Assembly (NCBI GenBank): GCA_021778845.1
Contig: JAJYBU010000008.1
Span: 1 to 64,000 of the forward strand
Direction: 5' to 3'
Length of the DNA: 64,000 bases
DNA from: Acidobacteriota bacterium
Lineage (GTDB): Bacteria; Acidobacteriota; Terriglobia; Terriglobales; Acidobacteriaceae
Both the position numbers and the translations under genes were made by a program. Below are positions 9,676-33,254 of this stretch, one piece after another. How positions within the stretch are numbered: position 1 is the first letter of the stretch; each line of letters starts with the position of its first letter. Under the pieces are notes generated by a model. The model was not told the origin of the DNA and did not search any database. It worked only from the letters and a program-made list of their open reading frames with translations.

Positions 9676-10095
9676 ATGTCCACGAAAACTACGCATCAGG
9701 ACCGGCATCTGGACTGCATACGCATGGGCGACTTCTTCATGATCCTCGCCCACTCCACAAGGATGCGCATCTTCTGTGCCCTTCAGAACGGACCCAGGAG
9801 CGTGACCCGGATCGCCGAAGAAGCCGAGATCTCGGTCTCCAACGCCTCACAGCATCTGCGCCTCATGCGCGACCGTGGCGCAGTTATCTCCGAACGGCAA
9901 GGTCAGACCGTCTCCTATGGCATAGCCGATCAACGGTTTTTCCAGGCAGCCAATCTGATTCGCGAGGCGCTCGATGACCGCAACAGCGTCACCGAATGCA
10001 GCCGATTCGCAGTATGCACGCAAGCACTTACTGAAGCAGATCAAACAGATGAAGCTCATTCCATTGAAAGCATCCACCAGCCCATAACCCACTAG
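9676..10095 (+). CDS. ArsR-family transcriptional regulator, candidate sulfur-responsive repressor
   Basis: 139-aa winged-helix protein. The HTH (ISVSNASQHLRLMRDRGAV) and beta-hairpin (SERQGQTVSYGI) are standard for ArsR/SmtB proteins. The metal-binding CxC of true ArsR is absent. Cysteines are at residues 14, 34, 108 and 114; two near the C-terminus (ECSRFAVC) resemble the redox/persulfide-sensing arrangement of BigR/SqrR and of the regulators of sHdr clusters. The start is fixed by GAGGAGG just upstream. It heads the TusA-Hdr-DsrE2 genes, so it probably controls them in response to reactive sulfur; that ligand is an inference. Confidence 0.8.
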   Translation: MSTKTTHQDRHLDCIRMGDFFMILAHSTRMRIFCALQNGPRSVTRIAEEAEISVSNASQHLRLMRDRGAVISERQGQTVSYGIADQRFFQAANLIREALDDRNSVTECSRFAVCTQALTEADQTDEAHSIESIHQPITH

Positions 10096-10107
10096 AAGGA
10101 GACGTTT

Positions 10108-10362
10108 ATGAACACACAGGACCTTACAACTCTCACCGCCGACAAAGTAATCGATGCCCGTGGCACAGCCTGCCCCGGCCCACTGCTCGAAGCCAAAAAA
10201 GGCATCGGCGCCGTCAAGGTAGGCCAGGTCATCGAAGTAAAGTCCAACGACAAAGGTTCCCGCAAGGATCTATCCACATGGGCAACCAAGGTCGGCCATG
10301 AGTATCTCGGCCTCATCGAAGCCGATGGCCACGACCGTCTGTTTGTGTTGAGGAAGAAGTAA
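10108..10362 (+). CDS. tusA: TusA-family sulfur carrier protein
   Basis: 84-aa sulfurtransferase of the TusA/SirA/YeeD family that passes a persulfide on a single cysteine. The CPGP motif (Cys22 in ARGTACPGPLLEAKK) is intact, and the following hydrophobic strands fit the IF3-like fold. A strong ribosome site (AGAAGGAGA) precedes the ATG; the gene begins 12 bases after the arsR stop. Beside DsrE2, a rhodanese fusion and Hdr-like subunits, it most likely delivers sulfane sulfur to or from the complex and does not serve tRNA thiolation. Confidence 0.9.
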   Translation: MNTQDLTTLTADKVIDARGTACPGPLLEAKKGIGAVKVGQVIEVKSNDKGSRKDLSTWATKVGHEYLGLIEADGHDRLFVLRKK

Positions 10363-10467
10363 CCACCTACAGGGTCCCGGCACGGATCATCCATCCTGCC
10401 GGCCCCTGTAGTCCAGAGCAACGATCAAGACCGCGAGCCGAAGCCCGTGGTCAGTAAGAGGTGCGGT

Positions 10468-10974
10468 ATGGCTGACGTTTTCGTTCCTAAGATACTTGTG
10501 CTGGCCACTGAAAAGTGCGCCTATCCCGGTGCCGATGCGGTAGGCAAGGCCCACCTGGAATATCCCTCCAGCGTCTACATTTTGCGCGTGCTCTCTCCAG
10601 TGCTCTTCCCTGAAGACTTCTTTCTGCGCACCTACAGCAAGGGCATCGACGGCATCATCATCGCCGCCTGCGGTTCGGACTGCCCCTACCACGGTGCCTA
10701 TGAACGTCTCGCCGCGCGCATCGACACGCTCACTACCGTCATGAAGGACGGCGGCCTGGACATCGAGCGCATTCGCCTCACAGCCATCTGCACGGTCTGC
10801 ATCAAGGCCTTTCTCAAGGAGATCGCGCAGATGACCGACAACCTCATCCGTCTCGGACCGGTGGACCGCGCGCGCGCCGGCAAGCTCTACGAGGAATCGC
10901 TGCAGCGCCTGCAATCCTCCGTCAACCCCGCGCTGCTTGGCAACCACTCCACGTCAGAAAGGGTCTCGCTATGA
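10468..10974 (+). CDS. Hydrogenase iron-sulfur subunit, MvhD/FrhD family
   Basis: 168-aa protein of the MvhD family, which carries electrons between a partner and HdrA through a [2Fe-2S] centre. Matching family segments are KCAYPGADAVG, YPSSVYILRV, the GIDGIIIAACGSDCPYHGAYERL block and MTDNLIRLGPVD. The first CxxC of classical MvhD (CNWC) is reduced here to EKC, but further cysteines occur at AICTVC. The ATG at 10468 has AGAGG six bases upstream and is preferred over a GTG at 10447. The stop overlaps the next gene's start (ATGA). In canonical QmoB this domain is fused to HdrA; here it is a separate gene. Confidence 0.8.
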   Translation: MADVFVPKILVLATEKCAYPGADAVGKAHLEYPSSVYILRVLSPVLFPEDFFLRTYSKGIDGIIIAACGSDCPYHGAYERLAARIDTLTTVMKDGGLDIERIRLTAICTVCIKAFLKEIAQMTDNLIRLGPVDRARAGKLYEESLQRLQSSVNPALLGNHSTSERVSL

Positions 10975-12314
10975 CACCGGCCACGGAACAAAGCAACGCA
11001 TATCGCCCCGACGCACTCGTCGTTGGAGGAGGCATCGCCGGCATGCAATCAGCCCTCGATCTCGCCGAACAGGGGCTCAAGGTGATGCTCGTCGAGCGTG
11101 GCCCCAGCATCGGTGGCCACATGATCTCCCTCGCCAAAGTCTTTCCCACGCTGGACTGCGCCAGTTGCATCACCGCTCCCAAGATGTCCGCGTCCTCGCA
11201 CCACGACAACATCAAGATCCTCGTCAACACCGAGGTGCAAGGCATCCAGACTATCGGCGGCGTGCACCACGTGAAGCTGCTCAAGAAAGCAACCTACGTC
11301 AACTTCGACAAGTGCATCGGCTGCCGTCTCTGCGAGTACGCCTGCGACGCCGAGTACCCCGATCCTCTCGAAGAGGGCCTCGGTGCCAGGCGAGCCATCG
11401 GCGTCGCCTTCACCAACGCCATCCCGCAGAAGGCTGTGCTCAATCCCGAACTCTGCGCCACCTGCGGAACCTGCGCTCGCGTCTGCCCCACCGACGCCAT
11501 CGAGTTCGATCAGCAGTCCGAAACAGTGATCGTCCAGACCGACGCCGTCATCGTTGCCTCCGGCTTCGCGCTCAACTCGCTCAACGTCAAGCCACAGTAC
11601 AACGCAGCGCGCAGCAGGAACATCGTCTCCGCGCTCACGATGGAACGTCTGCTCGCTCCGCACGGCCCCTATGGCCGCGTGCTCCGTCCCTCCGACGGCA
11701 AAATTCCATCGTCCGTCGCCTTCGTTCAGTGCGCAGGCTCGCGCGACGCATCCATCGGTGTCTCCTACTGCTCGCGCGTCTGCTGCATGTACGCCATCAA
11801 GCAGGCCATGCTGCTCTCCGGCGCCCTTCCCATCGCCGACATCACCATCTACTACATGGACATCCGCGCCTTCGGCAAAGGCTACGAGCAGTTCTACCAG
11901 AACGCCAAAGCCATGGGCGTCAACTTCGTGCGCGGCAAGGTCGCGCGCATCGATCCCGTCGACGACGGCGATCTCTCCCTGCACGTCGAGACCACCGAAG
12001 ACCCGGAGAACTTCCTGCAGGAGCGTCGTCACGATCTCGTCGTGCTTGCCCAGGGCATGCTGCCCGAGTGGGACATGTCCGGAACCACGCCCGTGCAGCG
12101 CGCAGCCGATGGCTTCGTCGCCACCCCGATGCTCACCTCACCAACCGTCACCACCGCGCCCGGCATCTTCGTCGCCGGCGTCGCAGCCGGCCCCAAGGAC
12201 ATCGTCGACACCATCGCCGAAGCAGGTGCAGCCGCCATGCAGGTCAGCCAATACCTCTATCAGAAGCGGTCTGCCAACGTAACCGAATCGCAGTCAGCCG
12301 TCCTGGTCGGATAA
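10971..12314 (+). CDS. HdrA/QmoA-like FAD and iron-sulfur protein
   Basis: 447-aa flavoprotein related to heterodisulfide reductase subunit A and QmoA. An FAD-binding Rossmann motif (VVGGGIAGMQSALDLAEQG) is followed by the HdrA-specific cysteine segment FPTLDCASCITAPKM. Two ferredoxin-type clusters come next (CIGCRLCEYAC and CATCGTCARVCP), then CAGSRD and YCSRVCCMYAIKQAML. It lacks the N-terminal HdrA domain, and its length fits QmoA (about 410-450 aa). It is translationally coupled to the MvhD gene by an ATGA overlap. Predicted role: cytoplasmic electron transfer in a membrane-linked Hdr/Qmo-like complex. The partner substrate is unknown. Confidence 0.85.
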   Translation: MTPATEQSNAYRPDALVVGGGIAGMQSALDLAEQGLKVMLVERGPSIGGHMISLAKVFPTLDCASCITAPKMSASSHHDNIKILVNTEVQGIQTIGGVHHVKLLKKATYVNFDKCIGCRLCEYACDAEYPDPLEEGLGARRAIGVAFTNAIPQKAVLNPELCATCGTCARVCPTDAIEFDQQSETVIVQTDAVIVASGFALNSLNVKPQYNAARSRNIVSALTMERLLAPHGPYGRVLRPSDGKIPSSVAFVQCAGSRDASIGVSYCSRVCCMYAIKQAMLLSGALPIADITIYYMDIRAFGKGYEQFYQNAKAMGVNFVRGKVARIDPVDDGDLSLHVETTEDPENFLQERRHDLVVLAQGMLPEWDMSGTTPVQRAADGFVATPMLTSPTVTTAPGIFVAGVAAGPKDIVDTIAEAGAAAMQVSQYLYQKRSANVTESQSAVLVG

Positions 12315-12352
12315 GGAACGAAGGACACCAGTAGAACCTCGAGGACAAAAGT

Positions 12353-14371
12353 ATGAGCGACAAGAACGATTCCACCAAGCAGCCGGGCACCGAAGACCTC
12401 GATCTCGCATGCGCGACTCCTGAAGAAGAAGAGGCGCTGCTCGAAGCCGATCCAACCTATCTAAAACAGCGCGCGGCCGTGCAGCAGCACTTGGAGCAAG
12501 TCCGCCTGCAGCGCTCTGATCTGCCTCCCGAGGTGCGCGTCGGCGTCTACATCTGCCGCTGCGGCGGCAACATCTCCGACGTCGTCGACGTCGAGCGCGT
12601 AGCGAAAGTCGTCGGCCTGATTCCCGGAGTCGTCACCGCGAAGGTCAACACCTTCTGCTGTTCGGACCCCGGTCAACAGACCATCACCTCCGACATCCTC
12701 GAGCAGAATCTCGATCGCGTTGTGGTCGCCTCGTGCTCGCCCTCCCTGCACGAGCAGACCTTCCGCGGCGCTGTCTCCCGCGCCAACATGAACCCGTATC
12801 TCTATGAGCAGGTGAACATCCGCGAGCAGGGTTCCTGGGCGCATCGTCACGATCCCGAAGGGGCCACGCATCTGGCCATCCAGATGATCACCGCTGCCGT
12901 CGGCAAGTTGCGCTACTCCACGCCTCTCGACCAGATCAAGCTCCCCAACCATCGCAAAGCTCTCGTCATTGGCGGCGGCATCGGCGGCATGAAAGCAGCC
13001 GTCGACATGGCAGGCCGCGGCATTCTCGTCATGCTCGTCGAACAGTCCGATCGCCTCGGCGGCCGCCTCAACGAGCGTGGCCGCGTCTATCCCTCCGAGA
13101 AGATGGCCAGTGAGTTTGTGACCGAACTGATCCAGAACGTGCGCGCGAACAAGAACATCGAAGTCCTGCTCAACAGCAACGTCACCTCCGTCAACGGCTT
13201 CATCGGAAACTTCCGCACCGTCATCACCGGCCCCTTCGGACCCGCTGGTGCGACAGCATCCACCGACCAACTCGTAGGCGCGATCGTCATGGCCACCGGC
13301 TACCGCCCGTACGTTCCGCGCGACGGCGAGTTCCTCTATCGCGAAGATCCCTGCGTTCTCACCACGCCGGAGTTCATCCAGTTTTCCCAGAGCATCGATG
13401 ACCGCACCCGGGACATGGTCTATCGCGGTCGCACCATCCGCAGCATCGCGTTTCTGCACTGCGTCGGCAGCCGCCAACTCGACGGCGTCCACGAGCCGCA
13501 ACCCGACGGCACCCTCAACACCTACTGCTCGCGCGTCTGTTGCAGCACCATTCTTCAGCAGGCCCTCGCCGTCCGCGAGCGCTTCCCCAAAGTCCGCGTC
13601 TACGACTTCCATCGTGACATCCGCACCTACGGCCGCGGCGAAGAGGACTACTACATCAACGCCTCCAAAGCCGGCGTCGTCTTCTTCCGCTTCAACGGCG
13701 AAGACCCCATCAAGGTCGAGCGCAACACCAAATCCAATGGCAAGAAATCCGCGCCACTCACCGTCACCGTCAAGGACGCGCTCACCTGGGGTGAAGAGTT
13801 GGAAGTCCCCGTCGACATGGTCGTCCTCGGCGTCGGCATGATGCCCAGCCACATCGAGGATCTGGTCGAGAGCATCAAGCTCTCCACCGGCGAAGACCAC
13901 TTTCTGCAGGAGGTTCACCCCAAGCTGCGCCCGGTCGAAGTTGCCGTCAACGGCGTTCTCCTCGCAGGCACAGCGCAGGGCCCCATGAACATTCAGGAGA
14001 CGCTCAACGCCGCCGCAGCCGCAGCCGTCAAAGCCGCCTCCATGTTCGCCAAGGACGTCGTCGAACTCAATCCCTTCGTCGCTGTCGTCGACGCATCACG
14101 TTGCACCGGCGAGGCCATCTGCGTCACGCAATGCGACTACGAAGGCGCACTCAAGATGGTCGAGGTGGAAGTCGACGGACGCATGGTGCAACGCGCCGAG
14201 GTCAACGCCGGTCTCTGTTCCGGCTGTGGAGCCTGCGTCCCCGTCTGCCCCACCCGCGCCCTCGACGTCGATGGCTGGCGCCTCGACCAATACAACGCGA
14301 TGGTGGACGGCCTCGTCACCGAAGCCCCCAGCGCACAATGCGGCGTACCAGAACTGGTGCACCTGGGCTGA
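12353..14371 (+). CDS. HdrA/QmoB-like FAD and iron-sulfur protein
   Basis: 672-aa second HdrA homologue. A leader of about 65 acidic residues is followed by the N-terminal HdrA domain (GVYICRCGGNISDVVDVERV, FCCSDPGQQTI, ASCSPSLHEQTFRG, NIREQGSWAH). Then come the FAD motif VIGGGIGGMKAAVDMAGRG, CVGSRQ with YCSRVCC, and a C-terminal pair of cluster motifs (CTGEAICVTQC, CSGCGACVPVCP). It lacks the FPTLDC segment and central ferredoxin found in the preceding protein. The MvhD domain normally fused to QmoB is the separate gene at 10468. GAGGA precedes the ATG. It is probably the partner of the 10971 product in a heteromeric Qmo-like complex. Confidence 0.85.
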   Translation: MSDKNDSTKQPGTEDLDLACATPEEEEALLEADPTYLKQRAAVQQHLEQVRLQRSDLPPEVRVGVYICRCGGNISDVVDVERVAKVVGLIPGVVTAKVNTFCCSDPGQQTITSDILEQNLDRVVVASCSPSLHEQTFRGAVSRANMNPYLYEQVNIREQGSWAHRHDPEGATHLAIQMITAAVGKLRYSTPLDQIKLPNHRKALVIGGGIGGMKAAVDMAGRGILVMLVEQSDRLGGRLNERGRVYPSEKMASEFVTELIQNVRANKNIEVLLNSNVTSVNGFIGNFRTVITGPFGPAGATASTDQLVGAIVMATGYRPYVPRDGEFLYREDPCVLTTPEFIQFSQSIDDRTRDMVYRGRTIRSIAFLHCVGSRQLDGVHEPQPDGTLNTYCSRVCCSTILQQALAVRERFPKVRVYDFHRDIRTYGRGEEDYYINASKAGVVFFRFNGEDPIKVERNTKSNGKKSAPLTVTVKDALTWGEELEVPVDMVVLGVGMMPSHIEDLVESIKLSTGEDHFLQEVHPKLRPVEVAVNGVLLAGTAQGPMNIQETLNAAAAAAVKAASMFAKDVVELNPFVAVVDASRCTGEAICVTQCDYEGALKMVEVEVDGRMVQRAEVNAGLCSGCGACVPVCPTRALDVDGWRLDQYNAMVDGLVTEAPSAQCGVPELVHLG

Positions 14372-14400
14372 CCCAGAGCACCTGAAGGGAGAGATCGACA

Positions 14401-14718
14401 ATGGCAATGAAGACACTAACGGCCCAGCAGAAACAGGCTCTCGCCACCATGCGCGAACGCATAGGCGGGGTCAGCGAAGAAAAGAAGCAGCACGCCAAAC
14501 AACTAAAGGCTGCGCGCAAGGCGATCGTCCAACTGCTCACCCAGAAGCCGGCCACGGCTCCCGAGATCGCCGCAGCCCTCAACATGCCCAGCGACGAGGC
14601 CCTCTGGCACCTCACCGGCATGCGCAAATACGGACATGTCACCGAAGCCGGCGAAGAGGGCGAGTACCTCCTCTATGCGCTCGTCGCCACCGAAGAAGCG
14701 GCCGCAACAGCTCACTAA
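14401..14718 (+). CDS. Small winged-helix-like protein inside the Qmo-like operon
   Basis: 105 aa. The N-terminal 40 residues are a charged helix (QQKQALATMRERIGGVSEEKKQHAKQLKAARK), followed by a winged-helix fold (KPATAPEIAAALNMPSDEALWHLTGMRKYGHVTEAGEEGEYLLYAL). It may bind DNA, but its position between two structural subunit genes suggests that it may be a scaffold or accessory of the complex. The ribosome site GGAGA lies eight bases before the ATG. A second ATG two codons later is possible. No named family is recognised beyond the fold. Confidence 0.7.
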   Translation: MAMKTLTAQQKQALATMRERIGGVSEEKKQHAKQLKAARKAIVQLLTQKPATAPEIAAALNMPSDEALWHLTGMRKYGHVTEAGEEGEYLLYALVATEEAAATAH

Positions 14719-14739
14719 TACGTAGTACGAGGGATCGCA

Positions 14740-15951
14740 ATGGCACACGCAATCGATGTTGCACTGATGGACAAGATCAAGAAGCACGGCCCCGGCGGCA
14801 CGCTGGATGTGAGTGCCTGTTTCAACTGCGGAAACTGCACCGCTGTCTGCCCGCTGGCAGAGGACTCCTCCGGATTTCCCCGCCGCGTCATCCGCATGGC
14901 GCAAGTCGGCATGGAGAAGGAACTCCTCGCCGACGAAGACATCTGGCGCTGCTACGCCTGCGGCGAGTGCACCAAGACCTGCCCACGCCAGGCCGACCCC
15001 ATGCAGTTCATGGCAGCGGCGCGCAGCTACGCCATCTCCCGCTACGACGCCACCGGATTGTCCGGCCTCATGTACCGCTCCGTGACCGTCAACATTCTGG
15101 TCTTCCTTCTGCTCTCCGCATTCTTCGTTCTCCTTCTGCTCTCGCACAAAGGAGGCCTCGAAATGGGCAGTAACGGCGCGCTCTTCAGCGGCATCGGCTC
15201 CACGCGCCTCTTCCAGTTCATCCCCGGCGAGTGGGTCCACGGCATCGGCATCGCACTCTTTACCGTGATCGGCGTCAGCCTCGCCTTCGGCATCTTCTCC
15301 ATGATCTACAAAGTCATGAGCAAGAAGAATCTCTCCGGTGAGCGGCCAGCGTTTCCGATCTCCGCGCTCATTCCCTCCATCGTGTCCGCCGTCATGGACG
15401 CACTCAATCATCGCCGCTTCCGCAACTGCGACGCGACCGAGCAACCCACCAACGAGCCCATCTATCTGCGCGCCTGGTTCGTCCACGCCTCCATCATGTG
15501 GGGCTTCATCGCCATGCTCATCGCCACCACGGTGGACTATCTCTTCAAGCCCATCGGCTCGCCCGTTCCTCCCTGGTATTCCATGCGTCTGCTCGGCCTG
15601 GTCGGCGGCCTCGTCTGCCTCTACGGCCTGGCCATCGCCATCTCGCGCAGGATCAGCGCAAAGGAAACGCCCTACGACAAGAGCGCCTTCTCTGATTGGT
15701 TCTTCCTCCTGTTGCTCACCGGCACCGTCCTCACCGGCCTGCTCACCGAGGTCGTCGTCTACCTCCCGCACCCGACCCTCTTCGGCTACGCAATCTTCCT
15801 CACGCACATCGTTCTGGCCATGGACATTCTCATCCTCATGCCGCTCACCAAATTCGCGCACGTCGTCTACCGGACCCTCGCCCTCGCCCTGCACGAGTGG
15901 GCGCTGGCCCCGGCACCGCAAAAAGCCACGGCTGCAGCCAGCAACGCCTAA
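14740..15951 (+). CDS. QmoC-like membrane subunit: HdrC ferredoxin fused to b-type cytochrome domain
   Basis: 403 aa. Residues about 1-100 are an HdrC-like domain with two [4Fe-4S] motifs (CFNCGNCTAVCPL and CYACGECTKTCPRQADPMQF). The rest has about six membrane helices of the nitrate-reductase-gamma/QmoC type, with His residues in or near helices (VHASIMWGF, LTHIVLAMD, FAHVVYR) that could ligate b haems. This is the architecture of QmoC, which links cytoplasmic Hdr-like subunits to the quinone pool. GAGGG precedes the ATG. It anchors the HdrA-like pair to the membrane. Confidence 0.87.
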   Translation: MAHAIDVALMDKIKKHGPGGTLDVSACFNCGNCTAVCPLAEDSSGFPRRVIRMAQVGMEKELLADEDIWRCYACGECTKTCPRQADPMQFMAAARSYAISRYDATGLSGLMYRSVTVNILVFLLLSAFFVLLLLSHKGGLEMGSNGALFSGIGSTRLFQFIPGEWVHGIGIALFTVIGVSLAFGIFSMIYKVMSKKNLSGERPAFPISALIPSIVSAVMDALNHRRFRNCDATEQPTNEPIYLRAWFVHASIMWGFIAMLIATTVDYLFKPIGSPVPPWYSMRLLGLVGGLVCLYGLAIAISRRISAKETPYDKSAFSDWFFLLLLTGTVLTGLLTEVVVYLPHPTLFGYAIFLTHIVLAMDILILMPLTKFAHVVYRTLALALHEWALAPAPQKATAAASNA

Positions 15952-15978
15952 CCTCATACCCGCAAAGGAGCGCCCGTC

Positions 15979-16566
15979 ATGCCCACAGCCACCGAAGTCG
16001 ATCTCACGCAAGTCAATCTCAATCAAGCCAATTTCAAAGACGCGCTGGAAGCACTCACCGCCCGCGTCGAGGCCATCGAGCAAACCGCCGGCAACGACCA
16101 CCTCTCCATTGGAGTGATGACCGGAAATCTCGACACCACCATCGCCGCCTTCATCATCGCCCTCGCGGCCACCGCTTATGACATCAAGGTCGATATGTTC
16201 TTCACCTTCTGGGCCGTGGCCGCCTTGCGCGATCCAAAGAAGGCCCCACCCAAAAAGTTCATGGAGAAGATGTTCGGCTGGATGCTGCCCCGCGGCTCCC
16301 AGGCTCTTCCCCTCTCCAAGATGCAGATGGCCGGCATCGGCCCCAAAATGATCCGCTCGATCATGCAGCAGCACGGCGTCAAGTCTCTCGAGCAGCTTAT
16401 GAAAGAGGCCGGCGAGTACGGCGTCGAGATCCACATCTGCGAGATGTCGATGGACCTCATGGGCTTCAAGGCCGAAGAGATGATCGACTACCCGCACCTC
16501 GATTACGTCGGCGCCGGCACCTTCATCCAGCTCATCGGCGAATCCAAGCAGGCATTCTTCTTATAA
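15979..16566 (+). CDS. DsrE2-family (DsrE/DsrF/DrsH-like) sulfurtransferase
   Basis: 195-aa protein with a predicted coiled N-terminus (residues 1-40) and a DsrE-like domain. The signature ICEMSMDLMGF with its conserved cysteine (about residue 154) is the DsrE2 active-site region; a second family hallmark is the hydrophobic helix near residues 50-70 (GNLDTTIAAFIIALAATAYDIKVDMFFTFW). DsrE2 proteins exchange persulfide sulfur with TusA and rhodanese in sulfur-oxidising organisms. AAGGAG precedes the ATG. It sits 27 bases after the QmoC-like gene in the same operon. Confidence 0.88.
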   Translation: MPTATEVDLTQVNLNQANFKDALEALTARVEAIEQTAGNDHLSIGVMTGNLDTTIAAFIIALAATAYDIKVDMFFTFWAVAALRDPKKAPPKKFMEKMFGWMLPRGSQALPLSKMQMAGIGPKMIRSIMQQHGVKSLEQLMKEAGEYGVEIHICEMSMDLMGFKAEEMIDYPHLDYVGAGTFIQLIGESKQAFFL

Positions 16567-16634
16567 ATAACTGCCAAACCAGCGCTGGTGAAATAATCAA
16601 AGAGACGCATCAGCCGATGAAACCCAATCCTGGG

Positions 16635-16657
16635 ATGGGCAGTGAGTCACTGCCCAT
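16635..16657. terminator. Hairpin between DsrE2 and the CoADR-rhodanese gene
   Basis: ATGGGCAG and CTGCCCAT flank a 7-base centre (TGAGTCA), itself palindromic around one base, so the whole element reads as a 23-bp near-perfect palindrome. No T-tract follows. It may be an attenuator, an RNA-processing site or an operator for the next gene. Confidence 0.45.
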
Positions 16658-16702
16658 TCGTCGTCTCTCGACCATCGCTGAGGAAAGCCGTATCACATCA
16701 CT

Positions 16703-18385
16703 ATGAACAATCTTGCTGGGAAACGCATCGTCATCGTCGGCGGAGTCGCCGGAGGAGCAGGTGCGGCCACCCGCGCACGGCGTCTCTGTGAAGACTGCGA
16801 AATCATCGTGCTGGAGCGCGGGCCCTACGTCTCCTTCGCCAACTGCGGCCTGCCATATTTCATCGGCGGCGAAATCATCCAGCGCAACGCCCTGCTCCTG
16901 CAAACCCCCGCGACGCTGCGTGCGCAGTTCAATCTCGACGTCCGCGTCAACTCCGAAGTCCTCTCCATCGACGCGAAACAGCAGGTCCTCACCGTCCGCG
17001 AAGTAGCCACCGGCCGTGAGTACGAGTTACCCTACGACGCGCTCGTTCTCTCTCCCGGCGCCTCGCCGCTGCGTCCGCCCATCCCCGGCATCGAGCGCCC
17101 CGGCCACTTCAGCGTCCGCAACATTCCCGACGTCGAGTACATCGCAAGCTGGCTCAACGACTGCGACGAGTGCCGCGCCGTCGTCGTCGGTGGCGGCTAC
17201 ATCGGCCTCGAGATGGCCGAGCAACTCAAGGAGCGCGGCCTCTCCGTCACCTTGCTTGAGGCCATGCCCCAGGTCATGACCCCGCTCGATCCCGAGATGG
17301 CCGCATGGCTCCATCTCGAACTCGTCGCCAACGGCATCGAGCTCCACCTCAACGATCCCGTCGCAGCCTTTGAGGCCCCCGCAGCCGGCGAGACCGCGCG
17401 CGCCTCCGTCGTAGTCCTCAAGAGCGGCAAGCGCGTCGAGGCCGACCTCGTCATCCTCGGGCTCGGCGTCCGTCCCGAAACATTGCTCGCGAAAACTGCC
17501 GGCCTCGAACTCGGCGCCCTCGGCGGCATCCGCGTCAACGACCACATGCAGACCAGCGACCCACACATCTGGGCCGTCGGCGACGCCATCGAAGTCAAAG
17601 ACGCCGTCACCGGCGCATGGAGCCACATCCCGCTCGCCGGCCCCGCCAACCGCCAGGGCCGCATCGCCGCCGACAACATCTGCGGCCGCTCATCACGCTA
17701 CGATGGCACCTGGGGCACCGCGATCCTGCGTCTCTTCACGCTCTCCGCCGGCTGCACCGGCGCCAACGAGAAGTCGCTCCGCAAAGCTGGCATCCCCTTC
17801 CAAACCGTCTACCTTCATCCCGGCTCGCACGCCGGCTACTATCCCGGCGCGCAGTTAATCGCGATGAAGATCCTCTTCGCGCCCGACACCGGCAAGCTCC
17901 TCGGAGCCCAGGCCGTCGGCCAGGACGGCATCGACAAGCGCATCGACGTCCTCGCCACCGCGCTCCAGGCCGGCAGAACCATGGACGATATCGCAGAACT
18001 CGAGCTCGCCTACGCCCCTCCCTTCGGTTCGGCCAAGGACCCCATCAACATGGCCGGCATGATCGCGCAGGACGTCCTGCACGGCGATGTGCAGCTTGCG
18101 CAGTGGAGTGAGATCGCCACCCTCGACCCCGCGCAGACCTTCCTGCTCGATGTCCGCCGCCCCGACGAACGCGCCAAGGGCTTCATCCCCGGCTCCACGC
18201 ACATTCCCCTCGACCAGATCCGTTCCCGCATGCACGAACTTCCGAGCGACCGCGAGATCATTGCCTACTGCCAGTCCGGCCAGCGCTCCTACTTCACCTC
18301 CAGAATCCTCCTCCAGCACGGCTTCCGCGTTCGCAACCTCACCGGCTCCTATCGCACCTGGAAGGCCGCCCAGGACGGGAAATAG
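16703..18385 (+). CDS. CoA-disulfide reductase / NAD(P)H:polysulfide oxidoreductase fused to rhodanese
   Basis: 560 aa. Residues 1-450 form a pyridine-nucleotide disulfide oxidoreductase: FAD motif IVGGVAGGAGAATRARR, the single-cysteine active site FANCGLPYFI (no CxxC), NAD motif VVVGGGYIGLEMAEQL and the dimer domain. Residues about 465-560 are a rhodanese with active loop YCQSGQRS. This two-domain layout is known from CoADR-RHD and Npsr enzymes, which reduce CoA persulfide, CoA disulfide or polysulfide. It is separated from dsrE2 by 136 bp with a hairpin, so it may have its own control. It probably supplies or drains persulfide for the relay. Confidence 0.88.
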   Translation: MNNLAGKRIVIVGGVAGGAGAATRARRLCEDCEIIVLERGPYVSFANCGLPYFIGGEIIQRNALLLQTPATLRAQFNLDVRVNSEVLSIDAKQQVLTVREVATGREYELPYDALVLSPGASPLRPPIPGIERPGHFSVRNIPDVEYIASWLNDCDECRAVVVGGGYIGLEMAEQLKERGLSVTLLEAMPQVMTPLDPEMAAWLHLELVANGIELHLNDPVAAFEAPAAGETARASVVVLKSGKRVEADLVILGLGVRPETLLAKTAGLELGALGGIRVNDHMQTSDPHIWAVGDAIEVKDAVTGAWSHIPLAGPANRQGRIAADNICGRSSRYDGTWGTAILRLFTLSAGCTGANEKSLRKAGIPFQTVYLHPGSHAGYYPGAQLIAMKILFAPDTGKLLGAQAVGQDGIDKRIDVLATALQAGRTMDDIAELELAYAPPFGSAKDPINMAGMIAQDVLHGDVQLAQWSEIATLDPAQTFLLDVRRPDERAKGFIPGSTHIPLDQIRSRMHELPSDREIIAYCQSGQRSYFTSRILLQHGFRVRNLTGSYRTWKAAQDGK

Positions 18386-27527: not shown

Positions 27528-28520
27528 TCAGCGGCTCTGCTGCTGTTGCGCCTGTTGCTGATGACGCGTCATAGGTGGCGGCTGCTCGGGCATGGCCTGC
27601 GCCTTCTCCACCAGCATGGACCAGTCTTCGGGCACGGGGAGCTCGCGGTCCAGCGGCGGCGTTCCCTCGCTCGGCTCCACGCGGACGGCCACGGCAAGCT
27701 CGCTCTTGGTGCGGCCGCGGTACACACCATGCGTTGGCGGAACATCTGAGTAGTCGCGGCCGATGGCGGTGCGAATGTGCCGGTCGCCAGCCACGAGATC
27801 GTTGGTCGGATCGAAGCCCACCCAGCCTAACTCGGGCAGAAACGCCTCCACCCAGGCATGCGTCGCCGAGCTCTCCGAGCGGTCCTTGTCGGCATCGCCG
27901 TGGTAGAGGTAGCCGCTGACATAGCGACAAGGAAGCTGTAACTGCGAGCGCACCAGCGAGATCATGATGTGCGAAAAATCCTGACAGACGCCGGCCTTGC
28001 TGGTGAGCGCGAGCTCGATCGGCGAGTCCACGCTGGTGGACTTCGGCTTGTAGTCGAAGTATTCGTAGAGCTGCGTATTCAGCTTGTGCAGCGCGCTCAG
28101 TGGATCGTCGCTTCGGCGCACTCCCAGGTGCCTGCCCAGAGCTTCGAGCTCTGGCGTAAAGCGCGCAAACTCGCTGGGCAACAGCATCTCCCAGAAGTCG
28201 CCCTCATGCACCAGCCGGTCGAGTTCGTCCCACGCTCCCGGCGGCAGCGACTCCGGCACCTGCGCATGCGAGGCCATCTCCACCAGCGACTCGGCCACGA
28301 TCACCAACTGCCCATGCTGCCCCGGAATATCGAAGTGGTGCACATGATTCGCAAGGTGGTCGCGATGGCTGAAGACGCGGCAGCGCGGACTCACCGACAG
28401 ATGAAACGTCAGGCAGCGCTGCTGCGCATCCGAGCGCGGGTGCATACGCGTCTCCATCATGCTTTCGCTGACCGGCGTCTTGTAGAGAAACTTCGTCAGA
28501 TGGCGGATCGAATAATACAT
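27528..28520 (-). CDS. Transglutaminase-like protein of the ATP-grasp/alpha-E cluster
   Basis: 330 aa. N-terminal bacterial transglutaminase-associated beta domain (YYSIRHLTKFLYKTPVSESMMETRMHPR), then the papain-like core with catalytic Cys in AGVCQDFSH, His in SATHAWVEAFLPELGWVGFDPTND and the Asp a few residues on. The C-terminus is Gln-rich. The start at 28520 has GGAG six bases upstream and is preferred over one ten codons earlier. In related clusters this protein probably acts as a peptidase or amide ligase in peptide modification. It is last in a five-gene minus-strand operon. Confidence 0.85.
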   Translation of the reverse strand: MYYSIRHLTKFLYKTPVSESMMETRMHPRSDAQQRCLTFHLSVSPRCRVFSHRDHLANHVHHFDIPGQHGQLVIVAESLVEMASHAQVPESLPPGAWDELDRLVHEGDFWEMLLPSEFARFTPELEALGRHLGVRRSDDPLSALHKLNTQLYEYFDYKPKSTSVDSPIELALTSKAGVCQDFSHIMISLVRSQLQLPCRYVSGYLYHGDADKDRSESSATHAWVEAFLPELGWVGFDPTNDLVAGDRHIRTAIGRDYSDVPPTHGVYRGRTKSELAVAVRVEPSEGTPPLDRELPVPEDWSMLVEKAQAMPEQPPPMTRHQQQAQQQQSR

Positions 28521-28559
28521 CGGGTTCTCCAAGGAACTATATGCTGCCAAACGGCCCGC

Positions 28560-29588
28560 TTAGCTGAATGGCCAACGGAAGAGCCATCCAATCCGCCAGC
28601 GCCGCTGTTGATGCCAGACGACTGCCGGCAGAAGGACTGAGGCGATGGTGGGCAGAATCAATTGCAGCCAGAACTCATGCGTATGCACGAGGCGAAGCAG
28701 AACCTCGCGCGTTGCTCCCTGTGCAAACTGCGCCATAAGAAAGATACCGAGCGAGGCTCTGCCGATCCATGCCCAGGCATCGCCGAAGCGTGTGTTCTCG
28801 ATAGTGCGGGCGATGAGAAACAGCCCTGCAGTGCCGGTGATGCCCAGCAAAACAGCGAGCCATGCCGACGACGAGCCGAAGCTTGCAGCATAGCGGTAGT
28901 GCAGGATGGCGGCAGCCTGAAGCGCAAAGATCGCCACGGCACCCAAGGCTGCAACCCACCGGCTAAGATTGCCCAGCTTGAAGATCGATCGACCCACTAA
29001 CATGCCCGTGGCCAGAAAGGAGAAGAACCACACCGTTTTATAAATGGTCTCGAAGCCGACCGTCGGCATGAGCGCAGCGGCGACGGCAGCCAGAGCGAAA
29101 CGCAACCATGCGGGCATTCTGCGGGTGAGCAATGCGAGCATCTGCGTGCAGAAGAGCACAGCAAGAAACCATCCTCCAGAGCCACTAATGAGCGAGGCCA
29201 CAAGATTGCTCCAATGGACAGGAGACGCGCTTGCTTGGAAGCGGTGGATCCATGGCTCGATTGCCATCAGCAAAACTATCCAACCCACGTAGGGGTAGAG
29301 GATGGTCTTCATCTTCTCCAGGGTGAAGTCCAAGGGGCCGCGGCGCTGGATGCTGCCGACAATGAAGAGGCCTGCCACGAAAAAAAAGAGAGGCATGTGA
29401 AAGCTGTAGACGTAGAGGTCGGAAAAAAGGCGCGAAGCCCCAGTCCACCAGCCGCGCGCATACATGCCCTGCCCGGTGTGTTCGTAGACAACCAGAAAGA
29501 TTGCAAGACCCTTTACGATATCCACGGAATTTGACCGTATTGGAGCCGTGATCGGGTCAACAGGAGATGTCAGGATTCGTTCGGTCAC
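28560..29588 (-). CDS. Acyltransferase family 3 membrane protein (OafA/YrhL-like)
   Basis: 342-aa integral membrane protein with about ten helices. The N-terminal VDIVKGLAIFLVVYEHTGQGM carries the His (YEHTG) typical of acyltransferase 3, followed by SFHMPLFFFVAGLF and the RR segment. Family members transfer acetyl or succinyl groups to sugars or lipids. The GTG start follows the alpha-E stop immediately (TAAGTGA), so it is translationally coupled. Its base composition looks lower in GC than that of neighbours, and it does not belong to the usual ATP-grasp/alpha-E set, so it may be a later insertion. Confidence 0.8.
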   Translation of the reverse strand: MTERILTSPVDPITAPIRSNSVDIVKGLAIFLVVYEHTGQGMYARGWWTGASRLFSDLYVYSFHMPLFFFVAGLFIVGSIQRRGPLDFTLEKMKTILYPYVGWIVLLMAIEPWIHRFQASASPVHWSNLVASLISGSGGWFLAVLFCTQMLALLTRRMPAWLRFALAAVAAALMPTVGFETIYKTVWFFSFLATGMLVGRSIFKLGNLSRWVAALGAVAIFALQAAAILHYRYAASFGSSSAWLAVLLGITGTAGLFLIARTIENTRFGDAWAWIGRASLGIFLMAQFAQGATREVLLRLVHTHEFWLQLILPTIASVLLPAVVWHQQRRWRIGWLFRWPFS

Positions 29589-30575
29589 TTAGCCCGCCAG
29601 TGCTGCTTGAATCGGATAGTTAACGTACAGGTGAACCATGGTCTCATGAATTGCCTGGCACTGACGTTGAATGCCGCGCAGATAGGCTACGAGATCGCCC
29701 ATGAGAATCTCATCGACGCTGGCGAATCCCAGCGATGCGCTCAGCCTGCCCGAAATGCGGTTCAGTTCGTCGGCTCGCGTCTTGCCCGACTTCTCCTGAA
29801 TCGCCTGCAGAGCGCACTTCAGGCTGTCAATCGAGAAGCGCAGCGAGTGCGGAAACTCCGCGTCGAGCAGCAGGAACTCCAGAATTCTCTCCGGCGTCAG
29901 GTCCGCCGTGTACACCTTGCAGTAGGCTTCAAACGCCGTTGCCGAGCGCAGCAGCCCCATCCAATCCAGGTACTCATTGCCCTCGGGCACGCGGTCGGGA
30001 TGCGCCCACACATCCGGGTGATACGCCTCCAGCAGCGAGCGCATTGCGGATGCGCGCTCCAGGTAGCGCCCCACCTGAATAAACTGCCAGCCCTCGCCAT
30101 GTGACATGGTCGAATCGGTGACACCCTGAAACTGGTGCACCGCCTCCATCACGTCCTGCAGAAACGCCGTTGGCTCCGCAGTCGAGTCCACGGCCGCGTC
30201 CACATGCATCGCCTGCTTCACCTCCGGATGCGTCACCTCGAGGTACAGCGAGTTCAGTTTCTGCCACTGCTCGGTCGAGATCTGTTCGCGCACCTGCCGT
30301 GCATTCTCGCGTGCGGCAATAATGCACGACACCACCGAGGACTTGTTTGACGTATCGAAGGTCAGCGTGCGCGCCAGTTCATACGGATTGCCGTTCCACT
30401 TCAGTCGCTTCGGATTGCCCATCGCGTGCAGCATGCGCAGCCATCGATGTTCGGAGGTCATCGCGCTCTCATCCAGCATCAGGTTCAGGTTCACGTCCAG
30501 CAGGCGCGTCGCGTGTTCGGCGCGCTCCAGATAGCGGCTCATCCAGTACAGTGAATCGGCGACGCGTGAGAGCAT
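29589..30575 (-). CDS. Alpha-E domain-containing protein (DUF403)
   Basis: 328-aa all-helical protein beginning MLSRVADSLYWMSRYLERAEH, the diagnostic alpha-E N-terminus, with LEFLLLDAEFPHSLRFSI and FLQDVMEAVHQFQGVTDSTMSHGEGW further on. Alpha-E proteins always travel with circularly permuted ATP-grasp and transglutaminase genes and are thought to be part of a peptide-ligating system; their biochemistry is not settled. The start at 30575 is supported by AAAGGA eight bases upstream, rather than the ATG 15 codons earlier. Confidence 0.9.
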   Translation of the reverse strand: MLSRVADSLYWMSRYLERAEHATRLLDVNLNLMLDESAMTSEHRWLRMLHAMGNPKRLKWNGNPYELARTLTFDTSNKSSVVSCIIAARENARQVREQISTEQWQKLNSLYLEVTHPEVKQAMHVDAAVDSTAEPTAFLQDVMEAVHQFQGVTDSTMSHGEGWQFIQVGRYLERASAMRSLLEAYHPDVWAHPDRVPEGNEYLDWMGLLRSATAFEAYCKVYTADLTPERILEFLLLDAEFPHSLRFSIDSLKCALQAIQEKSGKTRADELNRISGRLSASLGFASVDEILMGDLVAYLRGIQRQCQAIHETMVHLYVNYPIQAALAG

Positions 30576-30644
30576 TCGGTCGGTTCCTTTGCTGAATTTA
30601 TCTTGCTGTGTGATCTTCACTCTACACTGCCTTTTTCTTTCCGT

Positions 30645-31769
30645 TCATTGCGCTACGGGCCCGGCCTTCATCAGGTCAACAAACATACGGTCAAACCGCT
30701 CGACGTCGAGATCCTCCTGCACGTGCACCGGCTGCAACTGGCCTTCCGGCCCGCTGAGCGCAGGCTTGTTCGCCGAAGTCCACGTGAGCGTATCGCCGTA
30801 GTCCGGCCCACGCGTTGTATCGACGTCCACGTACAACACCTGCTCTTTGGTGATGATCTTCGGATCGATCCACGCTGCAGCGGCGAGCTCATCCCACAGG
30901 TAATAAAAATCGTGCGTGTACTTCGCAAGATACTGCGCGGCCGGCGAATTCGACTGCGCAATCTCGCGCAACATCTGCGGCGTGAAGTACGTCTTCACGG
31001 AGATATCCACGTCGGTCAACGTGATGCGCGGCCACTTCGCCCAGAACGTAATGTGCGCCGCCTCGGGATCGAACCAGAAGTTGAACTCGTGACGCGGATG
31101 CGTCGCAAACTCCGGATCGCCAGTGCGCGGGTTCAGGCTTCCGCCCATGATCACGATGCCCTGCGTGAGTGATGCAAACTCTGGATCGATTGAAATCGCC
31201 AGCGCGATATTGGTCAGCGGCCCCGCTGCGTAGATCGTCACCTGATGCGGATGCGCACGCACTTCACGAACGAGAAAATGTGCAGCGTCTTCCGCGAGTG
31301 GCTTCGTAGTGGGCTCACCTTCGGCCAGCGGCGGAATCACGAACGGCCCATGATACGGCTGTGCGCTGGTGTGCGCGGCAAGATCACCCCAGGCTCCGTA
31401 CCAAGGGAAGCTGCCCTCGGCTGCGCGAGCATGCATTGCTTCCGCCTCGGTATGCAGCAGAGGAAAGACAGCTCCGGGCACCACCGGAACATCGGCGCGA
31501 TGAATCAACTCCAGCATGCGCAGCGTGTGCGCTACTTCTTCCGGCTCCCACGCGTTGCCGCTGACCATCGTGATGCCGAGCACCTTCACCTGCGGCGACT
31601 GCAGCAGCACCATCATCGCCATCTGATTGGACCCGCCCGGGCCTGAGCCGTCCTGGTCGATCAACACGAGGCGTTGCGCGTCGGCAGCCACCACCATCGC
31701 CACCGCCAGCGAGCAGCAAAGCAGCCACCGCAACATCGCATGTCTACAACGTGTGCTGATCCGTGTCAT
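30645..31769 (-). CDS. Secreted nucleoside-hydrolase-like protein with altered active site
   Basis: 374 aa with a signal peptide (LLCCSLAVAMVVAADA). The fold is recognisable as inosine-uridine nucleoside hydrolase: LGITMVSGNAWEPEEVAHTLRMLEL, ITIYAAGPLTNIALAI, GGSLNPRTGDPEFA and the C-terminal DELAAAAWIDP with its Asp. The calcium-binding N-terminal motif DxDxxxDD is replaced by DQDGSGPGGSN, losing the paired Asp. It may have lost ordinary N-ribohydrolase activity or bind another ligand. It lies in the middle of the ATP-grasp/alpha-E operon, 12 bases after the ATP-grasp stop. Confidence 0.8.
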   Translation of the reverse strand: MTRISTRCRHAMLRWLLCCSLAVAMVVAADAQRLVLIDQDGSGPGGSNQMAMMVLLQSPQVKVLGITMVSGNAWEPEEVAHTLRMLELIHRADVPVVPGAVFPLLHTEAEAMHARAAEGSFPWYGAWGDLAAHTSAQPYHGPFVIPPLAEGEPTTKPLAEDAAHFLVREVRAHPHQVTIYAAGPLTNIALAISIDPEFASLTQGIVIMGGSLNPRTGDPEFATHPRHEFNFWFDPEAAHITFWAKWPRITLTDVDISVKTYFTPQMLREIAQSNSPAAQYLAKYTHDFYYLWDELAAAAWIDPKIITKEQVLYVDVDTTRGPDYGDTLTWTSANKPALSGPEGQLQPVHVQEDLDVERFDRMFVDLMKAGPVAQ

Positions 31770-31781
31770 CTTCGCACCCTG

Positions 31782-33254
31782 CTAACTCAACACCCACGTA
31801 TCTTTCGAGCCGCCGCCCTGCGAACTGTTCACGACCAGCGAGCCGCGCTTGAGCGCAACCCGCGTAAGTCCGCCCGGCACGATCGTCACCTTGTCGCCAT
31901 AGAGGACGTAGGGGCGCAGATCGACGTGGCGAGGTTCGAGTTCATCACCGATCAGGCAGGGCGCACGCGAGAAGCTGATCGTCGGCTGCGCGATGTAGTT
32001 GCGCGGGTTCGCCTTGATCTTCTCGGCGAAGACTTCGCGCTCCCTGGGCGTGGACTGTGTACCGATCAACATGCCGTAGCCGCCCGACTCGCCGACAGCC
32101 TTCACCACCAGCTTGTCCAGATTCGCGAGCACGTAGTTGCGCTCTTTTTCGCGCGTACACAGGAACGTCTCGACGTTGTTCAGCACGGGCTCTTCGCTGA
32201 GGTAGTAGCGGATAATATCCGGCACATACGCATACAGCGCCTTGTCGTCGGCAACGCCCGTGCCGAAGGCGTTGGCCAGCGTCACGTTGCCCGCACGATA
32301 CGCGTTGAACAGCCCCGCGGCGCCGAGAATCGAGTCCGGCCGAAACGATAGCGGATCGATGAAGTCGTCGTCGACGCGTCGATAGATCACGTCCACGCGC
32401 CGCAGCCCGCAGGTCGTGCGCATGTAGCAGACGTTGTCGTGCACGACGAGGTCGCGTCCCTCCACCAGCTCAATGCCCATCTGCCGCGCAAGGTACGCGT
32501 GCTCGAAGTATGCGGAGTTGAAGACGCCCGGCGAGAGCAGCACGATGTTCGGCTCCGGCCTTCCCTCTGGCGCCAGCGAGCGCAGTGTCCCCAGCAGCAG
32601 TTGCGTGTACTGCTCGATGGGCTTCACGTTGTAGTTGCGGAACAGTTGCGGGAAGATGCGCTTCATCACGCGCCGGTTAGTGAGCATGTAACTCACGCCG
32701 GAGGGAACGCGCAGGTTGTCTTCCAGCACCACGAACTCGCCATTCTCCATACGGATCAGGTCCGTCCCGCAGACGGCGATGTACACATTGCGCGGCACCT
32801 GTAGCCCACTCATCTGGCGGCGGAAGTGCTGGCAGGAGTAGACGATCTCGCGCGGCACGATGCCGTCCTTCAGGATGCGGCCCTCGTTATAGATGTCGCG
32901 CAGAAAAAGATTCAACGCCGTGATGCGCTGCGTCAGCCCGCGCTCCACCTTGGCCCACTCGGCGCTGGTGATGATGCGCGGCAGCAGGTCATACGGGAAG
33001 ATCTTCTCCGTTCCCTCTTCGCGGCCATAAACGGTAAACGTGATCCCCTGGTTCAGGAAGCTCAAGTCGGCGGCCTGCTTGCGGCGCTGGACTTCATCCT
33101 GGGGCAGAGCGGCGAAGTGCTCCAGCAGCGGAGCATAGTGATCGCGCAGATCATTCTCCCCGGCGAACATCTCGTCGAACGCATGATCCAACGTATAGTT
33201 CCACGGCATCGCACCCTTGGGGGTACGCGTGGATTCTGGCAAGATGTCATCCAT
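31782..33254 (-). CDS. Circularly permuted type 2 ATP-grasp protein
   Basis: 490-aa amide ligase-like protein, first gene of the operon. Family motifs include the N-terminal [32 protein letters not shown], the [12 protein letters not shown] segment, [19 protein letters not shown] and the C-terminal [16 protein letters not shown] (glycine-rich ATP-binding loop). In the Iyer/Aravind scheme such proteins join amino acids or modify peptides together with alpha-E and transglutaminase partners. The conserved '[13 protein letters not shown]' C-terminus is intact. A weak GAAAG precedes the ATG. Confidence 0.9.

Follow-up and report, generated by a model that had tools for sequence, protein, structure and literature searches.

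What does a Qmo-like, quinone-linked membrane complex do when its constant neighbour is a sulfur carrier rather than an enzyme of sulfate reduction? The question is raised by an operon in an Acidobacteriaceae genome (GenBank assembly GCA_021778845.1), within positions 1 to 64,000 of contig JAJYBU010000008.1. This whole stretch of 64,000 nucleotides is called the window here; it is the start of its contig, in a genome of 3.77 megabases on 79 contigs that is 89% complete. At positions 9676-18385 we found nine consecutive genes on the forward strand (Table 1), whose family names agree with Pfam and NCBIfam in profile scans of the window proteins. An original prediction, made from the sequence alone, had listed eight of these (ArsR, TusA with a CPGP motif, an MvhD-like protein, two HdrA-like proteins, a QmoC-like subunit, a DsrE-type protein, and a CoA-disulfide reductase (CoADR) with rhodanese), and all eight are borne out; the list was nonetheless incomplete, having overlooked a winged-helix gene. 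The short gaps that it described exist for most of the operon (-4 to 38 bases), the exceptions being TusA-MvhD (105) and DsrE-CoADR (136).

TusA, DsrE-type proteins, and rhodaneses pass on sulfane sulfur, and Qmo complexes link cytosolic redox partners with quinone. The idea that a Qmo-like complex is here tied to a sulfur relay is supported by both the gene set and its co-conservation. We propose, with an even chance of being right, that the operon encodes a TusA-partnered membrane complex, consisting of a QmoA-like HdrA, a QmoB-like HdrA split from MvhD, a winged-helix protein, and QmoC, that exchanges sulfane-sulfur electrons with quinone.

Conservation of the gene set

The original prediction had named a lack of co-conservation in relatives as counting against it; instead, co-conservation is strong. 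Within the genus, 7 of 28 genomes carried a QmoC match of 71-100% identity, while an eighth (G015; genomes are numbered with G and loci with L) had an unrelated-looking match of 27%. Six of the seven (the window and L025-L029) have the nine genes in identical order, with no visible breaks and with a FadL gene upstream. The seventh, L030 (G026), is a decaying or misassembled copy in which QmoC is broken and FadL abuts the long HdrA at its middle or in its later portion. The closest QmoC among the matches listed with a genus name was from Granulicella sp. (78%).

Across the phylum, a QmoC-like match at an expectation value (E) of 1e-20 or below was present in 56 of 396 genomes, and we compared layouts over 42 QmoC loci from the genus and phylum scans. 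The window layout accounted for 16 of them; 12 of these show TusA, and in the other 4 the contig or fetched stretch ends before its position. Eight loci had the order AprA-QmoA-QmoB-QmoC, seven had HdrA-QmoC-HdrA plus MvhD and no TusA match (MvhD lies behind in six and upstream in L081), and ten were incomplete or unassigned. The TusA-less loci (L078, L080, L081, L183, L189, L194, and L198) form one clade in the QmoC tree described below. Near QmoC in L186 and L195, HdrA-like matches lie about 6 kilobases (kb) apart, reflecting a large insertion or extra genes.

Beyond the phylum, we scanned GTDB genomes with an 18-row QmoC alignment alone and took the best 80 of at least 552 confirmed relatives as loci, a sample biased towards window-like QmoC and unselected for TusA; 56 of these were usable, having more than 6.7 kb upstream of QmoC. 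TusA, MvhD, and both HdrAs stood beside QmoC in all 56. The winged helix was present in 53, proved to be fused in two of the other three (L130 and L158), and was missing from L144, and within 8 kb there was a DsrE2-like gene in 38 and an ArsR gene in 20. These loci span eight named phyla (Acidobacteriota, Planctomycetota, Chloroflexota, Actinomycetota, Bacillota, Bacteroidota, Deltaproteobacteria, and Verrucomicrobiota), assigned by hand from record titles; the tree tool places the "Deltaproteobacteria" records in Myxococcota. Several loci and genomes are duplicate records (L083/G004, L084/G008, L086/G023, L098/G442, and L100/G171). The carrier locus L108 belongs to a record titled Actinotalea sp. 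M2MS4P-6, a possible test organism. When the open reading frames of the 80 loci were clustered, and antisense frames were set aside, the core genes, DsrE types, and ArsR were the only families shared by many loci. No other sense-strand family occurred in more than 9 of the 80; those present in 6-9 each were CoADR, FadL, a PAS-type regulator, an ABC ATPase, a thioredoxin, and some unknowns (names given by eye).

With the nine-gene order in five more genus genomes and the core in every usable QmoC-fetched locus, the co-occurrence of these genes is not due to chance. Two earlier statements fall with these counts: the combination is not uncommon, and CoADR-rhodanese and DsrE2 are not core parts, the former being local and the latter near QmoC in about two-thirds of the loci.

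Separation from the sulfate-type QmoC

We built a QmoC tree of 73 rows by a quick method, with support from the SH-like approximate likelihood-ratio test (SH-aLRT) only. Eight AprA-linked rows, along with five unassigned ones, lie across a long branch (support 100) from 49 TusA-set and 7 TusA-less rows; AprA-linked QmoC is a lineage separate from TusA-set QmoC. The window QmoC groups with other Acidobacteriaceae and next with Planctomycetota. One genome, G400, holds both kinds: an AprA-linked Qmo operon, whose contig also carries dsrA, and a TusA-linked operon with CoADR upstream (L082 and L199). Because TusA is the constant neighbour here and AprA is that of type I Qmo, the simplest reading of these layouts would be that TusA stands in for AprAB as the redox partner.

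Anatomy of the complex

The operon encodes the parts of a Qmo complex in the wide sense, namely two HdrA-like flavoproteins and an HdrC/HdrE-like membrane subunit. Both HdrA-like proteins match the HdrA2 model (446 and 463 bits, against a cut-off of 1100 for full-length HdrA2). The QmoA-like HdrA has a flavin adenine dinucleotide (FAD) domain with an inserted ferredoxin domain, and all 14 of its cysteines align with cysteines of methanogen HdrA; the QmoB-like HdrA has the HdrA N-terminal domain, a FAD domain, and a C-terminal ferredoxin domain. The MvhD/FlpD-like protein is the equivalent of the C-terminal part of QmoB: it is encoded by a separate gene in the window, whereas the AprA-linked L031 and L199 have QmoB and MvhD in one frame of 761 amino acids. 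The QmoC-like subunit scored 214.3 bits to NF038018, below the cut-off of 300, and carries two CxxCxxCxxxC motifs; a simple hydropathy scan shows eight hydrophobic stretches in it, two of which overlap. Its eight cluster cysteines and His249, His356, and His374 are kept in all 49 TusA-set, 7 TusA-less, and 8 AprA-linked rows, and His167, depending on the alignment, in 45 of 49, 7 of 7, and 0 of 8, respectively. Given the flavin and iron-sulfur (Fe-S) domains of the HdrAs, MvhD, and the motifs and membrane part of QmoC, the operon encodes the components needed to carry electrons between the cytosol and quinone.

In about half of the 56 loci and in several Acidobacteriota, the QmoA-like subunit is a longer protein of about 900 amino acids. 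The insert, a GltD/NADPH-glutamate-synthase-like domain between two ferredoxin motifs, was counted in 29 of 56 loci (30 in another count, the extra one being an Acidobacteriota match not seen at the operon). The long form in L066, of 902 amino acids, scored 496 bits to NF009410 (cut-off 516). The window encodes the short form, lacking this domain for nicotinamide adenine dinucleotide or its phosphate, NAD(P)H.

The overlooked ninth gene encodes a small protein whose AlphaFold model (predicted local distance difference test, pLDDT, 86.4) has an ArsR/SmtB-like fold, with CzrA/SmtB as the best Foldseek match (E 3e-4). In seven loci (L121, L124, L130, L138, L153, L158, and L159), this domain forms the C-terminus of the QmoB-like HdrA, as detected by hmmsearch (E 2e-15 to 4e-20) with a profile built without those loci. 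Among the 396 genomes of the phylum, 27 encode the winged helix, each in a single copy, though the census scored at most 12 candidates per genome and may miss weak further copies. It lies directly upstream of QmoC in 24 of these and at a contig end in one; in the remaining two it follows a QmoC that matches only weakly, within an operon of this type. In G089 (L079), G075, and G102, all of one family, the winged helix is kept beside QmoC. Because it is fused to HdrA and confined to the Qmo locus, the protein is more likely a subunit of the complex than a free regulator, and DNA binding may still be among its abilities; the same two features disfavour a second ordinary regulator despite the ArsR/SmtB fold.

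Sulfur-relay genes

The putative sulfur-relay proteins encoded beside the complex fit their earlier names to differing degrees. The protein called DsrE2 does belong to the DsrE family, and it is not the curated DsrE2: it scored 60.1 of 210 bits to model NF047629, and a simple hydropathy scan found no transmembrane segment, where two helices define DsrE2. "DsrE family" is therefore the safer name. The domain order of the CoADR-rhodanese fits a CoA-disulfide reductase with a rhodanese, although its TIGR03385 score lies below the cut-off. The ArsR repressor has cysteines at 14, 34, 108, and 114, of which Cys14 and Cys34 recur in 14 of 23 aligned ArsRs, namely all 14 of the near clade, and it scored 36.2 of 155 bits to the BigR model. 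Sulfane-sulfur repressors have two conserved cysteines, which in sHdrR are Cys50 and Cys116, 66 residues apart, according to the part of PMC12423496 that deals with them. We rejected an SqrR/BigR/sHdrR-type sensor on this cysteine spacing, from an alignment that included no real SqrR.

Sulfate and sulfite enzymes in carrier genomes

The original prediction reported no DsrAB, AprAB, or HdrB beside the operon, which holds, and allowed that dsr or apr genes elsewhere in the genome might explain the set. We therefore consider the carriers as a whole: 52 were tested, including G026 with its broken copy and excluding G035, a type I control. DsrA passed the curated cut-off in 10 and AprA in 7, and neither did in 40, the window genome among them. 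In G457, a DsrA-like match falls short of the cut-off (343 of 393 bits) and has another such match next to it; this genome enters the tally by its AprA. The window genome, as far as it is complete, has no DsrA over the cut-off and no AprA match at E of 0.001 or below; the AprA search works, since 8 of 53 genomes scored over the cut-off. A PF12139 search of the window genome was also empty, with its controls silent too. Matches to NIR_SIR fell in two proteins of about 600 amino acids, of which the one scanned best fits NirA/assimilatory-type models, below their cut-offs.

The complex might still serve sulfite or sulfate metabolism in an incomplete or variant Dsr/Apr pathway, its partners being encoded elsewhere or lost in binning. 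The DsrA- and AprA-positive carriers would fit this, as would the gap left by the incomplete window genome. In the genus, DsrA occurs in 2 of 28 genomes, both of them carriers (2 of 7 carriers versus 0 of 21 others), a weak sign of association. Against it stand three carriers at 97-100% completeness (G004, G008, and G442) without DsrA over the cut-off and without AprA, as well as the separate lineage of AprA-linked QmoC and the presence of both kinds in G400, and we consider the explanation quite improbable. A standard sulfate-reduction locus, possible in some relatives, is rejected for the window on the lack of DsrA over the cut-off and of an AprA match.

Proposed function and alternatives

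In the proposed TusA-partnered complex, TusA would be loaded by the DsrE-family protein and, locally, by the CoADR-rhodanese, such that Cys22 of TusA receives sulfane sulfur originating from persulfide, polysulfide, or S0. A thiol/persulfide step at or through TusA within the complex would then release two electrons, which may travel via the flavins and Fe-S clusters of the HdrAs and via MvhD, enter QmoC at its clusters and haems, and from there reach quinone. In the window genome, the quinone electrons would go onward to oxygen. In the many relatives with the GltD-type domain, part of the electrons could go to or come from NAD(P), an arrangement that would fit flavin-based bifurcation. TusA as redox substrate, the site of the sulfur chemistry, the acceptors, and the direction are inferred rather than observed.

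The complex probably works in the oxidative direction, which is favoured by COX1-family proteins over the cut-off in 43 of 52 carriers; the window genome has three, one of them longer and weaker-matching. Oxidation of sulfide or a thiol to TusA persulfide with quinone as acceptor would be downhill. The main rival is the same complex run in reverse, acting as a cytoplasmic sulfur reductase or detoxifier. Quinol, NAD(P)H, or both would then supply the electrons to form sulfide, either from sulfane sulfur carried on TusA or from polysulfide that CoADR-rhodanese and DsrE bring in. Enzymes of the CoADR-rhodanese kind reduce polysulfide or CoA-persulfide, and in the genus such a gene adjoins the operon; the NAD(P)H-domain insert that many relatives have and the carriers without COX1 also speak for reduction. 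Because persulfide reduction by menaquinol is uphill at standard conditions, a reductive mode would have to be driven by NAD(P)H or by proton motive force, and the window version has no NAD(P)H domain. Together with the frequency of COX1, this makes the reductive working appear rather unlikely to us.

Several results weigh against the proposed TusA-partnered complex. The 49 TusA-set rows are not one clade in the QmoC tree (4 label changes), as the TusA-less layout and a few unassigned rows fall inside. L079, whose HdrA genes lie several kb apart, has QmoC, the winged helix, and HdrAs and no TusA match in 19.9 kb, and since the 80 loci are those closest to the window QmoC among at least 552, members without TusA may be under-seen. 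We recognised no site for persulfide chemistry. A Pfam scan of the nine operon genes found no HdrB/DsrK-type (CCG) subunit, and aligned with methanogen HdrA, the QmoA-like subunit has no cysteine additional to the ordinary set, on which we rejected an extra catalytic cysteine there. Elsewhere in the window genome there are ten CCG matches; of three frames scanned, two best fit GlcF/TfrB-like models and one, a fragment, fits none, and none comes near the HdrB cut-off. Some carriers, including both genus genomes with dsrA, leave a tie to Dsr possible in part of the group. The argument from COX1 is weakened by the 9 of 52 carriers with no COX1 match, including five Chloroflexi records and one Planctomycetota record. 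In addition, PF00115 also covers nitric oxide reductases, and G490, for instance, has only a weaker match of 744 amino acids.

That no catalytic sulfur site was recognised would also fit a different role, in which TusA, DsrE, and ArsR serve for supply or sensing (sulfur for Fe-S cluster or cofactor assembly, or persulfide), while the complex has no sulfur substrate and shuttles electrons among quinone, NAD(P)H, and ferredoxin. TusA does act as a housekeeping sulfur donor, and a related TusA-less layout exists. However, the adjacency of TusA in every usable locus over eight named phyla exceeds what a housekeeping donor needs, and the frequent DsrE2-like neighbours likewise argue against such a role, which we regard as improbable.

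If the TusA-partnered complex works as proposed, sulfur-dependent electron transfer is encoded in many bacteria, among them Acidobacteriota, Chloroflexota, Actinomycetota, and Bacteroidota, in which searches with markers such as dsrAB, aprAB, sox, and shdr would overlook it. The operon may then represent an overlooked way of linking sulfur chemistry to respiration, and TusA, the winged helix, and QmoC would serve as a marker set for metagenomes.

Neighbouring genes

Upstream of the operon lie an outer-membrane transporter gene of the FadL type and a gene for a protein of 316 amino acids, which is also present upstream in the six genus loci with intact operons except L027, where the contig ends. 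The latter matched no Pfam family, its structure model was useless (pLDDT 37.5), and it shows 70-82% identity across seven fetched loci, three being second records of the same genomes. It is possible that the transporter and this neighbour import hydrophobic sulfur or organosulfur compounds. In another family, four loci (L066, L067, L069, and L070) have a distant FadL downstream of DsrE.

A promoter and terminator scan gave signals no commoner than in shuffles, and the region upstream of ArsR is visibly similar only between the window and L025; we propose no operator. A plasmid search with QmoC returned two records with partial ferredoxin-like matches. Further along the window, at 27528-33254 on the reverse strand, is a run of transglutaminase-like, acyltransferase, Alpha-E, nucleoside hydrolase, and circularly permuted ATP-grasp genes.

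Table 1. Genes of the TusA-linked operon and its upstream neighbours in the window (aa, amino acids)
Feature	Start	End	Strand	Remarks
316-aa protein	7056	8006	+	Signal-like N-terminus by eye; syntenic adjunct in genus
OMPP1/FadL/TodX outer-membrane transporter	8137	9420	+	PF03349, 91.8 bits; syntenic adjunct, upstream also in L025-L029
ArsR-family repressor	9676	10095	+	ArsR/HTH_20, 46.5 bits
TusA sulfur carrier	10108	10362	+	TusA, 66.4 bits; CPGP motif, sole Cys is Cys22
MvhD/FlpD-like electron-transfer subunit	10468	10974	+	PF02662, 73.8 bits; alternative GTG start 10447
QmoA-like HdrA, 447 aa	10971	12314	+	FAD and Fe-S motifs
QmoB-like HdrA, 672 aa	12353	14371	+	Without MvhD part
Winged-helix protein, 105 aa	14401	14718	+	Ninth gene; QmoB-fused in 7 loci
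QmoC-like subunit	14740	15951	+	Two [4Fe-4S] motifs and cytochrome-b-like membrane part
DsrE-family (PF13686) sulfurtransferase-like protein	15979	16566	+	156 bits; single Cys154
CoADR-like flavoprotein with C-terminal rhodanese	16703	18385	+	TIGR03385, 479.6 bits (cut-off 578.8)

Comparison with known systems

Type I QmoABC of sulfate reducers and Chlorobi shares with the window complex the two HdrA-like subunits, the HdrC/HdrE-like QmoC, and the MvhD module, and differs in its adjacent AprA, its MvhD fused in QmoB, its distant QmoC lineage, and the absence of a TusA match from the eight AprA-linked loci. DsrL, an Fe-S flavoprotein, has an NAD(P)H/FAD-binding domain in addition. HdrL of Desulfobacterium likewise adds such a domain to an HdrA/Fe-S flavoprotein, as outlined in PMC12142623. 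The GltD-type domain here instead sits inside the QmoA-like subunit of a membrane complex and is missing from the window copy.

The sHdr system contains paired HdrB and HdrC subunits as well as lipoate-binding proteins and is not known to include QmoC. Its likeness to the window operon lies in the TusA/DsrE/rhodanese relay, HdrA, and an ArsR-type repressor, in part as outlined in PMC6776052 and PMC12423496; its gene order is given in PMC6397845 as HdrCBA-Hyp-HdrCB. We rejected sHdr identity on the lack of HdrB in the operon. The YTD cluster, or DsrEFH type II, also has TusA beside DsrE-type proteins (PMC12998232, PMC13293266; the cluster is treated in PMC8528874 as well), and in archaea dsrEFH type II adjoins dsrMK or qmoAB (PMC13293266). 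YedE/YeeE is, however, absent from the window operon, and bacterial YTD is presented without Hdr or Qmo subunits in the relevant portions of PMC12998232 and PMC13293266.

Among reports on related organisms, tusA and dsrE2 were described as absent from peatland acidobacterial genomes (PMC6018796), and an Hdr cluster with tusA and dsrE2 was described in Thermomicrobium (PMC6776052). The available portions of PMC12142623 and PMC6397845 describe no such TusA-Qmo cluster. In a limited search that covered neither supplements nor most subscription journals, we found no description of TusA next to QmoC and two HdrAs. The winged-helix subunit is, to our knowledge, known from no Hdr or Qmo complex.

The closest published system is type II QmoABC, whose role is left open in PMC10504309 (ISME J 2023) and for which the portions of that paper available to us do not mention TusA, DsrE, or a winged-helix subunit. 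The QmoA- and QmoB-like proteins of the window scored 366 and 385 bits to methanogen HdrA (phmmer) versus 196 and 177 bits to QmoA and QmoB of L031 (tblastn, a different program), and so seem nearer to HdrA than to type I QmoA and QmoB, which is a type II trait. The window complex is probably a form of type II QmoABC; the loci placed in the QmoC tree include no type II sequence from Ammonifex or Vulcanisaeta. We tentatively suggest, with a little less than even confidence, that it represents a widespread and so far undescribed respiratory enzyme, an oxidoreductase acting between quinone and the persulfide (or thiol) of TusA. Organised around a winged-helix subunit, coupled to NAD(P)H in about half of the members seen, and possibly bifurcating, such an enzyme would add to Dsr and sHdr a third route for sulfane sulfur in the cytoplasm. 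If so, the type II Qmo question would gain a concrete partner, TusA, and a list of subunits.

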